Position numbers and translations under genes: made by a program. From assembly GCA_947491945.1 (NCBI GenBank), contig CANLLN010000003.1, positions 1 to 64,000 of the forward strand: a DNA stretch of 64,000 bases. Reading direction: 5' to 3'. Below the pieces are notes generated by a model, which was not told where the DNA came from, did not search any database, and saw only the letters and a list, made by a program, of their open reading frames with translations. Below are positions 71-7,257 of this stretch, in pieces. Position 1 is the first letter of the stretch, and each line of letters starts with the position of its first letter. Source of the stretch: an uncultured Carboxylicivirga sp. GTDB taxonomy: Bacteria > Bacteroidota > Bacteroidia > Bacteroidales > Marinilabiliaceae.

Positions 71-412
71 TTACTGAAATAGCTCGAGTTGTTGCGGAGC
101 AGTTTCGGAAGCCATAATTTGTGCACCCCACACATTTACCATTCCTCCGTACTGCTTATCTGTTATTCGTAAGATAGATATTTGGCCTTTGTCGGGAAGG
201 AAGTTCAATACTCTTTTTTCATGTACATCTGCGCTTTCACGGCTGGCGCAATGGCGGGTATACACACTCCATTGCATCATGGTAAAGCCATCTTTTATTA
301 GGTCTTTACGAAAGCGCGTAGCTAATTTTCGCTGTTTTTTTGTGCCTACCGGTAAATCAAAAAATACAAAGAGCCACATAATTTTATAGGCGTTTAGTCG
401 GGTGTGTTGCAT
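71..412 (-). CDS. cas2: CRISPR-associated endonuclease Cas2 (type II-C)
   Basis: Small subunit of the Cas1-Cas2 spacer-integration complex, about 113 residues. The N-terminal strand MWLFVFFDLP has the Cas2 pattern of hydrophobic residues ending in a conserved Asp, and the C-terminus ends in QLELFQ, typical of type II Cas2. The open frame runs upstream into cas1, but that extension only translates the intergenic palindrome, so I chose the ATG at 410-412 (MQHTRLNAYK). It lies 50 bases after the cas1 stop and is probably cotranscribed with cas1 and cas9. It is the last cas gene before the left edge, so the array is expected just beyond it. Family assignment is firm; the exact start is an inference. 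Confidence 0.93.
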   Translation of the reverse strand: MQHTRLNAYKIMWLFVFFDLPVGTKKQRKLATRFRKDLIKDGFTMMQWSVYTRHCASRESADVHEKRVLNFLPDKGQISILRITDKQYGGMVNVWGAQIMASETAPQQLELFQ

Positions 413-427
413 GATTGTAAGGATGTA

Positions 428-460
428 ACCTTTTCCAAAGTTCAAAACTTTGGAAAAGGT
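428..460. repeat. REP-like palindrome, copy 1 (cas1/cas2 junction)
   Basis: Perfect inverted repeat with 15-bp arms (ACCTTTTCCAAAGTT / AACTTTGGAAAAGGT) and a 3-nt loop. It begins one base after the cas1 stop codon (read on the minus strand) and lies ahead of the cas2 start. It has no T-run, so it is not an obvious terminator. It is one of five copies in the first 7.3 kb. Confidence 0.9.
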
Positions 461-461
461 A

Positions 462-1349
462 TCAGAAATTGGGATAGGAGATTTTCTTTTCTTCACCATT
501 AAAGCAGCGCGCCATCGAGGCGGTGGTAATGGATAAGGCAACCATTAGTGGACGCTTAAGTTTTCCAATTTGTACATCGCAGCTGAGCGTTTTTAGCAGC
601 TGGGCTTTTGTTTGTTTTTCGAGAATCAATTCCTGTGTGCCCGACCGCCATAACCCATACACTACATCATCTACATAAGGGCGGTAGGGCTCCATGATAT
701 CATCGGCCAGGCAGTAGGCATTATAACGGTTGTGATGGTGGATGCCCAAGGTGGGAAGTAATCCGGAGCCAACCAAAGCGCGTGCTACAGCGGATCGCAA
801 TACGATGTAGCCGTAATTTAAGAAGGCATTAGGAGCATCGCCATAACGATCGCGAATAAAATCAGATCCAAACAAACGGCTCCAATATTCCCGGGCAGCT
901 ATACCCTCGCGCATGGTGCTATCGTTGCTTTTAACTGAACTTGCCAGGGAGGCCAGAGGACCGCTATCAATGCCCTTTGATTTTAGTAAGGAGGCCTGGT
1001 TTCTTATTTTGGCAATAACGGTTTGTTGCCATAGTTGTTTTTTAAGTGGTAGCGTACTATTGATCTGATTACGGAAAAGTTCGTTCTGCAGGTGGTGGCT
1101 ATCGAGGTTGAGAAGCATAGCTGATGGTAGGTGTTTTTCGTCGCAACATACAACCGCTACATTATGGGCATTAAGTTGTTGAAGGGCAGGCATAGTTATC
1201 GTTATCTGCGGATGCTCTAAAATAACCATTCCAATATCTTCGATGGGCACCGTGCGTGTAGTCTCCTTATCAGTAAGGTTAACCACAAGCTGATTGTGTT
1301 GTATCGACAGGTAGGCAGGGTTGGAAAAGAATAGGGTTCGTTTGAGCAT
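462..1349 (-). CDS. cas1: CRISPR-associated integrase Cas1 (type II)
   Basis: Metal-dependent integrase that inserts new spacers into the array together with Cas2. It has 295 residues, normal for type II Cas1. The catalytic glutamate is in REGIAAREYW (E148); the second half of the site is LGIHHHNRYNAYCLADDIME (H205 region, D216/D217, E220), followed by PYRP. It starts at an ATG at 1347-1349 with no competing upstream start. On the minus strand it follows a transposase gene instead of cas9 directly, and cas2 comes after it. No catalytic residue appears lost, so adaptation should be functional. Confidence 0.96.
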   Translation of the reverse strand: MLKRTLFFSNPAYLSIQHNQLVVNLTDKETTRTVPIEDIGMVILEHPQITITMPALQQLNAHNVAVVCCDEKHLPSAMLLNLDSHHLQNELFRNQINSTLPLKKQLWQQTVIAKIRNQASLLKSKGIDSGPLASLASSVKSNDSTMREGIAAREYWSRLFGSDFIRDRYGDAPNAFLNYGYIVLRSAVARALVGSGLLPTLGIHHHNRYNAYCLADDIMEPYRPYVDDVVYGLWRSGTQELILEKQTKAQLLKTLSCDVQIGKLKRPLMVALSITTASMARCFNGEEKKISYPNF

Positions 1350-1507: not shown

Positions 1508-2050
1508 TTAATAATCGAATGAAAAGTCCATGGGGTGTTGATGCATATATCTGAAATTATTAATGTCATCAAACAGTTCAATTACCAGTGCGCAGTTGAT
1601 GGCGGTATTATGCTGTTTTAATATGGCATTGTATGATGAGTATTTCCATTGGCCGGGAGCATTTGTAAAACCATGGATTACCGGATTAAAATGAATGTAG
1701 TTAATAAGTTTCTTCAAGTATAATTCAGAGTCGACTCGTTTTCTTTTAAAGTTTTTCTGAAAAAGGCTGCCTGTGCGTTTATAAACTTTATTGTACGATT
1801 GGGTGTAGGCACTAAACATATTCGAAAATGATTTCGATAAACCTTGGGCTTGTTTATGATCACCGGTTGAAATCAATAAATGGAAATGATTTGGCATTAG
1901 ACAATAGGCGAGGGTACTGACTTGGGGGTGAATGTGTTGTTTGTATTTCTGCATGAAAAAATAGAAGTTTCGCTCTTCTTTAAAGAGTATTTCGGAGCCA
2001 TTGGCACGGTTGTATATGTGGTAAAAACGATGGGCTTCAAAAGGTATCAT
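1508..2050 (-). CDS. REP-associated tyrosine transposase (RAYT, IS200/IS605-like TnpA)
   Basis: Single-strand Y1 HUH transposase of the REP-associated family, 180 residues. The HUH motif is in CLMPNHFHLLI (H55-x-H57) and the likely nucleophile is Y86 in AYTQSYNKVY, followed by KRTGSLFQKNF, which is typical of RAYTs. I chose the ATG at 2048-2050 (MIPFEAHRFYHIYNRA); the open frame continues up to a TTG inside a palindrome, which is unlikely to be used. It interrupts cas9-cas1 and is bracketed by palindromes at 2079-2111 and 1460-1492, the expected arrangement for a RAYT and its REP substrates. The frame is intact, so it may be active. It could also be described as a domesticated transposase. 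Confidence 0.9.
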   Translation of the reverse strand: MIPFEAHRFYHIYNRANGSEILFKEERNFYFFMQKYKQHIHPQVSTLAYCLMPNHFHLLISTGDHKQAQGLSKSFSNMFSAYTQSYNKVYKRTGSLFQKNFKRKRVDSELYLKKLINYIHFNPVIHGFTNAPGQWKYSSYNAILKQHNTAINCALVIELFDDINNFRYMHQHPMDFSFDY

Positions 2051-2078
2051 GGCATTTTTTACTGTCTTAGTTGCCGAT

Positions 2079-2111
2079 ACCTTTTCCAAAGTTCTGAACT
2101 TTGGAAAAGGT
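2079..2111. repeat. REP-like palindrome, copy 3 (5' side of the transposase)
   Basis: Perfect 15-bp arms identical to copy 1 with the loop CTG. It lies 28 bases upstream of the transposase ATG. Confidence 0.9.
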
Positions 2112-2347: not shown

Positions 2348-5300
2348 TTATTTTAGACGTTCTAGTTTGCCAAGAGGGGACAATTTTACCTTAATAGGAT
2401 TTGCTTCCTCCCAGGCTTTGAAACTTTGTATTCGCCATTCTTCATCATTATTTGCAATGGTTGATGCCAAATGATGTCTAAAAGTGTAGTCCATTGATGA
2501 AATTTTTTGAACGCGGTACAGGTTTTTACTTAGAAAGCTATAGGTGTCTCTGTTTGAATGGAATTCATCATCACTCAGGCCCAGAAGAAATATATCATTT
2601 GTTTCTATGGTTGTGACAATTTTAGCGCCATCCTCGGGTAACATGTAGTTTGGCATATTTTGCCGTTTACGCTCAACAACTGTCCAGAATTGCACTGCTT
2701 CTTCCTTGAGATTACCTTTGGTATCTTTATAAAGCAATACATGGTGATTGTTCCGGGGATTTACGTGTTGATTTAAATGGCCTTTTAAGTGGTTAGTATT
2801 TCCGAGAATTTCGCGAATTCTAACTTTTTTTATGGGTACGTTGTCTCCACCTTTTTTATTGGGTAGCAACAATTGCCACTGACCGTTACTGACAAATGCA
2901 TCTTTTGGTATTGAATATCCTTTGGGATTATCGGTATTGATACCGTGTTTTGCTTTTAAAAAGTTCTCGATGATATTCTTAATGGTAGTATCTGCAATTT
3001 TAGCAACATGTTTGTTGTTTTTTAATTCGGTAACTTTTGTCCTGCGATGGAAAGCTTTTTCTTTATTAGGGCTTTGTCTCAAACCAAATATATTTTCCTT
3101 GTGTAACTGCCCTCGTACGCTAAAGCCTTTCTTATTTTTAGTGAGTGTTTTATTATTTTGCTTTATTGAAACAAGTATGCCAGCAGCTTTTTCTTGCCCA
3201 TCTTTATTAAAACCTACCCATGGCTCTGGGAATTTTTCAGTACTGTTTTCCTTGCCTCGTTGTTTATCCTTACGTTTCGCATTTTCTGTACTTAAGCGTT
3301 GTAGATAGCTTTGTTCTGTTAAGGCGATGGTAATGGCATCGATTGCATGATGACGGTGATCATCACGATTTTTCTTCGGATCGAATTTTATTTCACCCGT
3401 ATACTTATCTACCCAAATAGATCCTTCTATCAGTTTTTGGCCTTTCTCTATTTTGGGTAATTCTTTTTCAATGGGATGCAATTCATCTGGTTTTGATTCA
3501 ATGCTTAAAGTAGCATAGTATTTTCCGGGTTGCTTCTCTGTTTTGTGTTTGTATTGAGGATCGCAATCGGCTACCATAAAGCCAGATTCATCTACAGTGG
3601 CAGAGATACACACTTCATTGTTGTGTGCTTGAGGTCGCGGATTGATTGCTTTAATAAACTCTATGTTGTCAGGCGAAACATCAACAATTAACCAGTACTT
3701 TCCGTCGGGCAAATTGGTTTGGCAATTGTAAATGTAGCAACTGAACTGGCAGTTGTGAACAGTACCAAACAACATTAGCTGGTTACGCTTGGCTTTGGGT
3801 AGTTTGTTCTTTTCGGGTGCTTTAAAATATGTGTTTGTTATCTCAAACTTAGCCCAATAGGTTCCGTCTTCTATCTCCGGTGTTTTATAATTACCTGAAG
3901 TGTCGTTTTTAAACACCCCTTTCTCCACTTTGCCTCGCAGCACAATGTTTTGCTCATTGCTTTCTGGTTTATCGGTAAATTGTGGCATTAGCTTGAGCGA
4001 ACTGTTTACCTGTAGCTTTGCCCAATAATGTCCGTCTTTAATATTCAGGTCTTTAAAATCAATTTTGAAAGATTTCGAGTCAAATTTGTTTTTAGTTACG
4101 TAGCCTGATAGAAGTAATTCGTCATCGTTTGTATGAGGCCGGTCATTGAATTTTTTATGTATGGCAACAGTTTCTCCTGCCTCGTTGGTAACTGCTAAAT
4201 AAGGAACTGGTTTATCATCGTCTAACTCGAACGTGTGATTGCCGATGTTTTGTGTGGGTTGTAATATGGAATTTAATCCCCAAAGATGACGGAGTTCAGC
4301 TGTTAACTGACCTGGCATTACACGCACATCATGACAAATATGAGATAATAGCTCCACTGCTTTTTTTGCGATGTAGCGGCTGTCGTTTAATTGACGTTCA
4401 ATAAAGGTTTCTTTCTCAAATTTCTTTTTCGATGTGAAACGTTTGGCCTTAGGGTATGGTAAAGTTCGAAATGCCCTAGCGGCAATTTCATCCCAGCTAT
4501 TGGCTCCCCATATTTTTGGGTCCGGATTCTCCGTGTAATATTCATAAGGCGTTTTTTCTCCTTTATCATTATTAAAATGTGCTTCGCAAAGTGTTTTATT
4601 TCCAAAACTATCCTCCAGCGAAATGCTGTATGGAATGATGTGTTCAATTTGAATGGTGTTTGCTCTGCCCAGAAGGTCATTCATGGAGATAGTTTTGCCG
4701 GTATATGGACAACTGCATTTACCGCTTCTGTCTACAATCTCTTTATACATTAGGTATTTCTGAATGTTGTTTCTGGAAGGTCGTAATCCATATTCGGCTA
4801 AACGCTCACGGGCTTCGTTGTTTTTAGCTTCGTTGGTGGATATGTTCTTTGTGATTTTTTCACGTTGTGATTTGTTATTTCTTAAATCCCTGCCCATTTC
4901 AATTTTAATCTGAGCAAATTCAAAATCTTCACCAAGTTCTTTCCTGTATTTTACTAAAAGTGCATTTACCAGGCGTCGCGTCTCGTGCAGAGCTTGTTGA
5001 ACTATAGGATTACGAAGGTTTTCAAGCTCCGGTACCCATAAAACCAGTTCATCCTTAACTTCAACCTCCTGGCTGTGATGATAGAGGTGGAAAAAGTGCG
5101 GGTCGTCTTTTACGAAACCATAGTGATTATCAGGGTTTGATAAGTAATCTTTTATTTTTGCAATGGCTTCACCTTCCTTGTTTTCTTCCTTGAGGATATT
5201 TAGAATGTCTCTTTTAAGTTCTTGTTCCGATTCTTCAAAATGGGCATAACGTTGTCCAAAGGCATTTTTTACGCCACCCAAAATTACGGCGCGATCAAAC

Positions 5301-7149: not shown

Positions 7150-7250
7150 AAGAATTTTAAAAATGCTTATTAGATTCTTATCACAATAAGGCTATATGCC
7201 GAAGGAAATTGATCCTATACTCCCGCCTCGGTGGGAGTTTCGTTTTTTGA
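7150..7250 (+). ncRNA. tracrRNA of the type II-C system
   Basis: Predicted trans-activating crRNA of about 100 nt, divergent from cas9. It has a perfect promoter at its 5' end, then an anti-repeat (about 7150-7187) ending ATTCTTATCACAATAAGG. The TCACAAT element matches the remembered Bacteroidota tracr consensus, where repeats begin GTTGTGAT and the first G pairs with U. Next comes a short nexus hairpin (GGCTATATGCC, 7190-7200) and a strong intrinsic terminator, ACTCCC..GGGAGT followed by TTTCGTTTTTT (about 7219-7246). The matching CRISPR repeat should begin GTTGTGATAAGAATC. Function is inferred from position and structure; the array is outside the window, so pairing cannot be tested. Confidence 0.82.
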
Positions 7251-7257
7251 TATATCT

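Follow-up and report, generated by a model that had tools for sequence, protein, structure and literature searches.

The known proteins closest to the Cas9 studied here are compact type II-C Cas9s (the 1136-aa frames of genomes G566 and G594, the 1054-aa frame of G496 and the Nme-type proteins in the PDB), which fall near it in the tree and share with it the RuvC-II/HNH/RuvC-III order and the flanking motifs. Between those motifs, however, they hold 12-13 residues, whereas our protein, in which an array of repeat units occupies this site, holds ~303. CbCas9 (PDB 8iyq), from Chryseobacterium, was the best PDB sequence match (2.1e-36) and is of similar size (1442 aa), but it has 44 residues between the flanks, compared with about 290 inserted here. 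Another large II-C Cas9, the 1548-aa Fp2Cas9 of Flavobacterium psychrophilum, is reported to cut and has its HNH glutamate at residue 868 (PMC12609912), versus 765 in the array Cas9; judging from this position, the extra length of Fp2Cas9 probably lies before HNH. The array itself is not mentioned in the available portions of PMC10309648, PMC12609912 and PMC12669027, and no description of it turned up among the titles and abstract openings of the open-access literature, a scope that leaves aside preprints and most subscription papers. As far as we found, this repeat domain of a II-C Cas9 is previously undescribed, and the searches gave it no convincing relative or known fold. Few enzymes have been studied as thoroughly as Cas9; even so, one of its branches has, beside an active site, a ~280-residue repeat domain that is absent from the family models and fold libraries searched.

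The window, that is, the whole 64,000-nucleotide stretch analysed, contains the cas9 gene and the neighboring features listed in Table 1. Identification as Cas9 relied on TIGR01865 (cas_Csn1), which scored 490 bits against a cut-off of 100, and on HNH_4 and RuvC_III, both above their cut-offs. From the contig end to cas9 the scanned frames are cas2, cas1, a REP-type transposase and cas9, with no csn2 or cas4, which is the II-C gene set; because the window starts at contig base 1, the sequence past cas2 is unassembled, which limits this test. By the defining features testable here (CRISPR array and tracrRNA apart) the array-bearing protein is a II-C Cas9. No CRISPR array was found within the 64-kb window, whose contig starts at the cas2 end, an exact CRISPR-repeat pattern taken from relatives had 0 matches in the same assembly, and a loose pattern derived from a tracr-like stretch gave only chance-level matches there. 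That candidate stretch, upstream of cas9, includes a strong terminator-like hairpin; the fold z-score of the surrounding 7150-7255 was -3.07, and no Rfam family reached its cut-off at this place, the nearest being Magnesium-II with 22.5 bits versus 40. A palindrome (ACCTTTTCCAAAGTT..AACTTTGGAAAAGGT) recurs in the surroundings of cas9, the transposase and cas1, with copies at 428, 1460, 2079, 2305 and 7258.

Table 1. Features of the cas9 locus and of the inserted array (positions in the window).
Feature	Position	Strand	Basis
cas2 (listed start probably too far upstream)	71..541	-	Pfam CRISPR_Cas2, E 1.7e-17, match to residues 55-132 of 156
cas1, type II	462..1349	-	NCBIfam cas1_NMENI, E 6.1e-90
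REP-associated tyrosine transposase, between cas9 and cas1	1508-2089	-	69 bits, just below model cut-off of 80
cas9, type II-C, 1529 aa	2348..6937	-	Cas9 family models and motif positions
RuvC/HNH motifs of cas9, intact	GLDLGTNSIGW residue 6, KIEMGRD 678, EHIIPYS 765, DHRHHAIDA 1193		
RuvC_III match, second piece (model 77-177), containing DHRHHAIDA	3149..3409	-	66.6 bits
Array unit D5, residues 1137-1191	3365..3529	-	leave-one-out HMM
Array unit D4, residues 1078-1136	3530..3706	-	leave-one-out HMM
Array unit D3, residues 1024-1077	3707..3868	-	leave-one-out HMM
Array unit D2, residues 968-1023	3869..4036	-	leave-one-out HMM
Array unit D1, residues 906-967	4037..4222	-	leave-one-out HMM
RuvC_III match, first piece (model 3-58), before array	4259..4414	-	56.8 bits
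HNH domain, residues 743-798	4544..4711	-	Pfam HNH_4, E 9.3e-20
Candidate tracrRNA-like stretch	7173-7245	+	picked by eye and fold

Pfam RuvC_III matched the protein in two pieces, so that ~290 residues are inserted within the domain. The insertion lies in the loop that joins the LRHLWGLN segment to the RuvC-III catalytic motif, and its flanks are clean; in the solved 1082-aa Cas9 9ar4 the same flanks adjoin (chain 711 and 710). This is the place, directly before RuvC-III, that a preliminary description of the sequence had given for the insertion. Its further proposal that the insertion explains most of the extra length also stood, as the Cas9 minus the array would measure ~1243 aa versus open frames of 1029-1179 aa in 12 relatives with linkers of 12-18 residues. 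The last unit, D5, runs directly into the RuvC-III motif and is strongly conserved, reading EGxIWVDKxTGEIxFDPKKNRDDHRHH as it leads into the catalytic motif.

The array spans residues 906-1191 (window 3365-4222) and is made of five units of 54-62 residues (~57), parsed as permuted units that each start at the GxYW strand. Leave-one-out HMMs recovered every omitted position (D1 3e-8, D2 9e-13, D3 3e-6, D4 3e-9 and D5 1e-8), with E-values that refer to the search of one protein and with D1 recovered over residues 925-955 only (31 residues). Where four units and perhaps a partial fifth had been read earlier, there are thus five full ones. A first parse had divided the region into four central units (U1-U4), a leading segment (U0) and a trailing segment (U5). 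When each pair of these was compared with 500 shuffles, none scored as well for U1-U2 and U2-U4, 1 did for U1-U3 and 2 for U3-U4; the counts for further pairs were 3 (U0-U3), 5 (U2-U3), 14 (U0-U1) and 38 (U1-U4), and at least 58 shuffles were as good for U0-U2, U0-U4 and all five U5 pairs. Profile-profile comparison of 32 aligned rows found all six U1-U4 pairs mutually homologous (E 7e-9 to 2e-16) and matched U0 to U1, U3 and U4 at 4e-7 to 1e-5 (the two alignments displayed run over the unit's second half), while U0-U2 and every U5 pair failed. The array is five homologous units in the RuvC-III loop. They would have arisen through duplication within that loop. A search for the units elsewhere in their own genome returned just two other matches, at E 0.39 and 0.42.

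AlphaFold2, from which we used confidence and secondary structure only, modeled residues 876-1215 from 32 rows with a pLDDT of 84.4 and a pTM of 0.67, with the strand order alike in each unit, and residues 1022-1138 (D3-D4) with a pLDDT of 93.1, a pTM of 0.61 and repeated strands. The array is therefore predicted with good confidence to be a regular all-beta repeat, and the relative placing of its units is unsure because pTM reaches only 0.67 and 0.61. Between a repeated fold and none, both models (pLDDT 84 and 93) predict the repeated strand pattern, in line with the tandem small beta units proposed beforehand beside RuvC-III. Each unit is predicted to form two tight beta hairpins, beta3-beta4 followed by beta1-beta2, and the D3-D4 model suggests a pairing across units, beta1-beta2 packing with beta3-beta4 of the unit that follows. 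Four modules would then stand in line, closed at the base by a fifth consisting of the first and last hairpins, a parse based on the strand lengths of a single two-unit model.

The array resembles a beta-propeller in that each of its five ~57-residue units has several short strands and in that the first and last hairpins may close it, and our initial reading was a propeller of half, four and half. The order fits, but Foldseek searches of PDB and BFVD returned no match to anything at E<=0.001 among the 50 listed from each (best E 0.18, 0.07 and 2.5), with totals of 319 and 74 at E<=10 and 0 at E<=0.001; for this reason the propeller was dropped, and what was retained is the less specific notion of a closing module. 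Among the same 50 matches of each list the one recognizable propeller was clathrin heavy chain (6qnn), at E 0.98 and TMq 0.08, a weak test given pTM values of 0.61-0.67. Searches of Pfam, PHROGs and PDB sequences gave stray weak matches only, and no model among those searched covers the array.

The array was found mostly in Bacteroidales and Flavobacteriales and characterizes one Cas9 branch. Among the 393 genomes sampled from the order, the insertion query matched 15, comprising 11 whole arrays (this genome included), one array truncated where its contig stops (G067), the short-linker genomes G035 and G057, and a chance match in a protein of a different kind that has five stops (G050). RuvC_III was matched in 148 of the 393, and 12 of these 148 have the array, again counting the contig-cut G067. 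Both pieces of the split RuvC_III were listed in this census for 9 of the 11 array genomes and one of the two for G094, and for G277 a separate listing contains both; RuvC_III also appears in pieces in G047 and G310, for other reasons. The suggestion that large Bacteroidota Cas9s share the insertion in general did not survive this census, since 136 of the 148 genomes have neither a whole nor a contig-cut array and since, of the two cas9 genes in the genome itself (contigs C3 and C34), one encodes the 1529-aa protein with the array and the other a 1405-aa frame that is devoid of it. At the level of the phylum (395 genomes, queried with RuvC-II+HNH, loci kept for 30 matches) at least one further array appeared, in G686, and of the 71 genomes in the family 4 carry the array, a fifth match being due to chance.

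A scan of genome contigs yielded 33 loci, namely 31 further whole arrays and two cut by contig ends (L049 and L052); the 31, together with this Cas9, make up the 32-row alignment, from which the two cut loci were left out. As the scan required the conserved D5 motif, divergent arrays would escape it. The host titles name members of Bacteroidales and Flavobacteriales or Bacteroidetes, including Flavobacterium soyae (L038) and Bizionia saleffrena (L040), besides metagenome-assembled genomes filed under Chlorobiota (L044 and L052) and Caldisericaceae (L049, perhaps mis-binned). Phages contained no match to the array at E<=0.1, the three IMG/VR matches were all Cas9s with short linkers, an IMG/VR scan with the Cas9 of the short-linker locus L020 returned nothing, and 0 of 56 plasmid records covered 80% of Cas9. 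CRISPR arrays are present in 23 of the 33 fetched array-cas9 loci, many of which are cut by contig ends. One very divergent array lies within the branch (L017/L098, G277), with a 329-residue linker and unit HMM matches of only 4-10 bits.

The tree was built on RuvC-II+HNH only, which kept the array from influencing it; 152 matches gave 136 distinct rows, and after 25 were dropped for a weak E-value or an unreadable linker 111 remained. The 33 array rows form one side of a branch with support of 94/83 in this tree, and locus L018 comes next to them with 99/95, while support for the array rows by themselves is only 69/54 in a tree of 38 rows, where a single origin is weakly supported. Linkers measure 300-329 residues in the 33 array rows versus 12-14 in their nearest compact relatives, and in all 33 the number of units is near five, the length near-constant and the site the same. 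L018 (G035, a 1213-aa frame), inside or next to the array branch, has a 71-residue linker that looks by eye like one unit, and a linker length of 13+58n fits n = 0, 1 and 5. The origin of the array is testable because its relatives include proteins with zero units, with a single unit-like linker and with five units.

As a single-unit ancestor, the L018 linker would have weak and mixed support from HMM homology. Against the unit HMMs it scored 4.4 bits with D3 and 2.9 bits with D2, scores that 0 of 100 shuffles equaled; some shuffles did as well for D1 (2/100), all units together (2/100), D4 (7/100), D5 (26/100), the base module (60/200) and the two base-module hairpins (98/200 and 47/200). L020 (G057) matched the first hairpin of D1 with 17.0 bits and 0 of 200 shuffles as good, but failed to match the last hairpin of D5 (24 of 200 as good). 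The place of L020 in the tree is unsure, as its branch measures 1.55-1.75; in the 111-row tree it joins other compact rows (82/81), and a clade of L020, L018 and the array rows obtained an AU p of 0.355 in the 38-row analysis. Since L018 adjoins the array rows in the larger tree and is unresolved in the smaller one, the trees do not distinguish a gain of four units from a loss of four.

Across 9 of the 32 species, units at the same position are 31-52% identical, versus 20-30% between different positions, which indicates that the expansion is old; each unit may have a role of its own. In the nearest pair (G794) the array has a dN of 0.11 with dS saturated (3.3), its changes being mostly silent, and is 80% identical versus 91% for RuvC-II+HNH. 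This low dN is as expected under purifying selection, with the reservation that dS was not computable in 5 of 8 other region comparisons and that the comparisons were overall saturated or not computable.

The net charge of the array is -4, compared with +56 for the rest of Cas9, and it is negative in 29 of the 32 rows (0 to +8 in the other three); D3 alone is +4, and net charge is a crude guide. An acidic array on a protein that is otherwise +56 argues against a simple grip on DNA or RNA, the first of the roles suggested in the preliminary description. Together with the near-constant number of units, the position-specific conservation and the conserved D5, the acidic charge favors a rigid, protein-contacting lobe that tunes RuvC. 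The best explanation, which we put forward tentatively and at somewhat less than an even chance, is that such a lobe sits at the mouth of RuvC and modulates cleavage. The array would be a rigid accessory lobe anchored against RuvC via D5 and, by its place, would stand where the RuvC site takes in the non-target strand; work on SpCas9 would put this place near the non-target-strand groove. Being acidic, it would contact protein (the basic lobes of Cas9 itself or a partner) more than nucleic acid, and through these contacts the timing of RuvC cutting may be tuned. Should the array prove to tune when RuvC acts, or to bring in a partner, it would amount to a natural layer of control over Cas9 and could serve as an engineering part.

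Two other roles are each rather unlikely. One is that the array binds nucleic acid, its small OB- or barrel-like units holding either the guide/tracr RNA or DNA, the latter as target duplex or as displaced non-target strand. The array does adjoin the RuvC motif, and the sole high-probability Foldseek row among the 50 listed was the ABC ATPase ModC (3d31_A; prob 0.82, TMq 0.20, E 0.40), whose end carries OB-like domains; another such ATPase, CysA (1z47_B), recurred weakly (prob 0.07) in a further search, and Pfam tRNA-synt_1c_C scored in 1 of 25 units (2.8e-4) and 1 of 32 whole segments (0.0059). Opposed to this are the acidity seen in 29 of 32 rows, Foldseek E-values that fall no lower than those given above, and a per-unit Pfam match restricted to one unit. 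The other, which we rate no higher, is a platform on which Cas1-Cas2 or a host factor would dock; it would serve the acquisition of spacers, not cutting, and might take over the role of Csn2, which II-C systems lack. An acidic surface and a near-constant number of units would suit it, and a cas1-like family and the cas2 family of the window accompany cas9 in 23 and 22 of 34 loci, respectively (window included, many cut by contig ends); compact II-C Cas9s, however, sit with cas1-cas2 in the same way without an array, and no conserved partner gene was found at the 34 array-cas9 loci. The other families present in at least 3 of these loci were frames antisense to cas9 or derived from CRISPR repeats, a REP-type transposase (8/34) and one further family (4).

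Less probable is a passive spacer or stability element, in which a beta repeat grown by unequal duplication is retained for folding only. Repeats generally expand, and no evidence at hand indicates an active role, but the roughly five units in all 33 rows, the position-specific conservation and the low dN speak against a passive element. We also regard as quite doubtful the more elaborate idea that five beta modules derived from one ancestral hairpin module close into a ring of new fold, which would serve as an acidic autoinhibitory gate occupying the basic DNA path of Cas9 until the correct target is met. An intein or another self-removing or mobile insert, which an in-frame insertion at a conserved site beside an active-site motif might bring to mind, is extremely improbable, as the families listed in the Pfam and NCBIfam scans (25 of 30 in one of them) include no Hint or homing domain and the insertion is built of internal repeats, while all 33 rows have it at one and the same site with little change in length.

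Linkers of 38-88 residues and different make-up are common at the pre-RuvC-III site. Most of the loci read in another branch of large Bacteroidales Cas9s (L054-L082) share a different element, PRFERLNELT..., at this site. Finally, three genomes of the same order have Cas9-like open frames of 1806-1894 aa, far above the usual length (G033, L114; G264, L136; and G267, L115).
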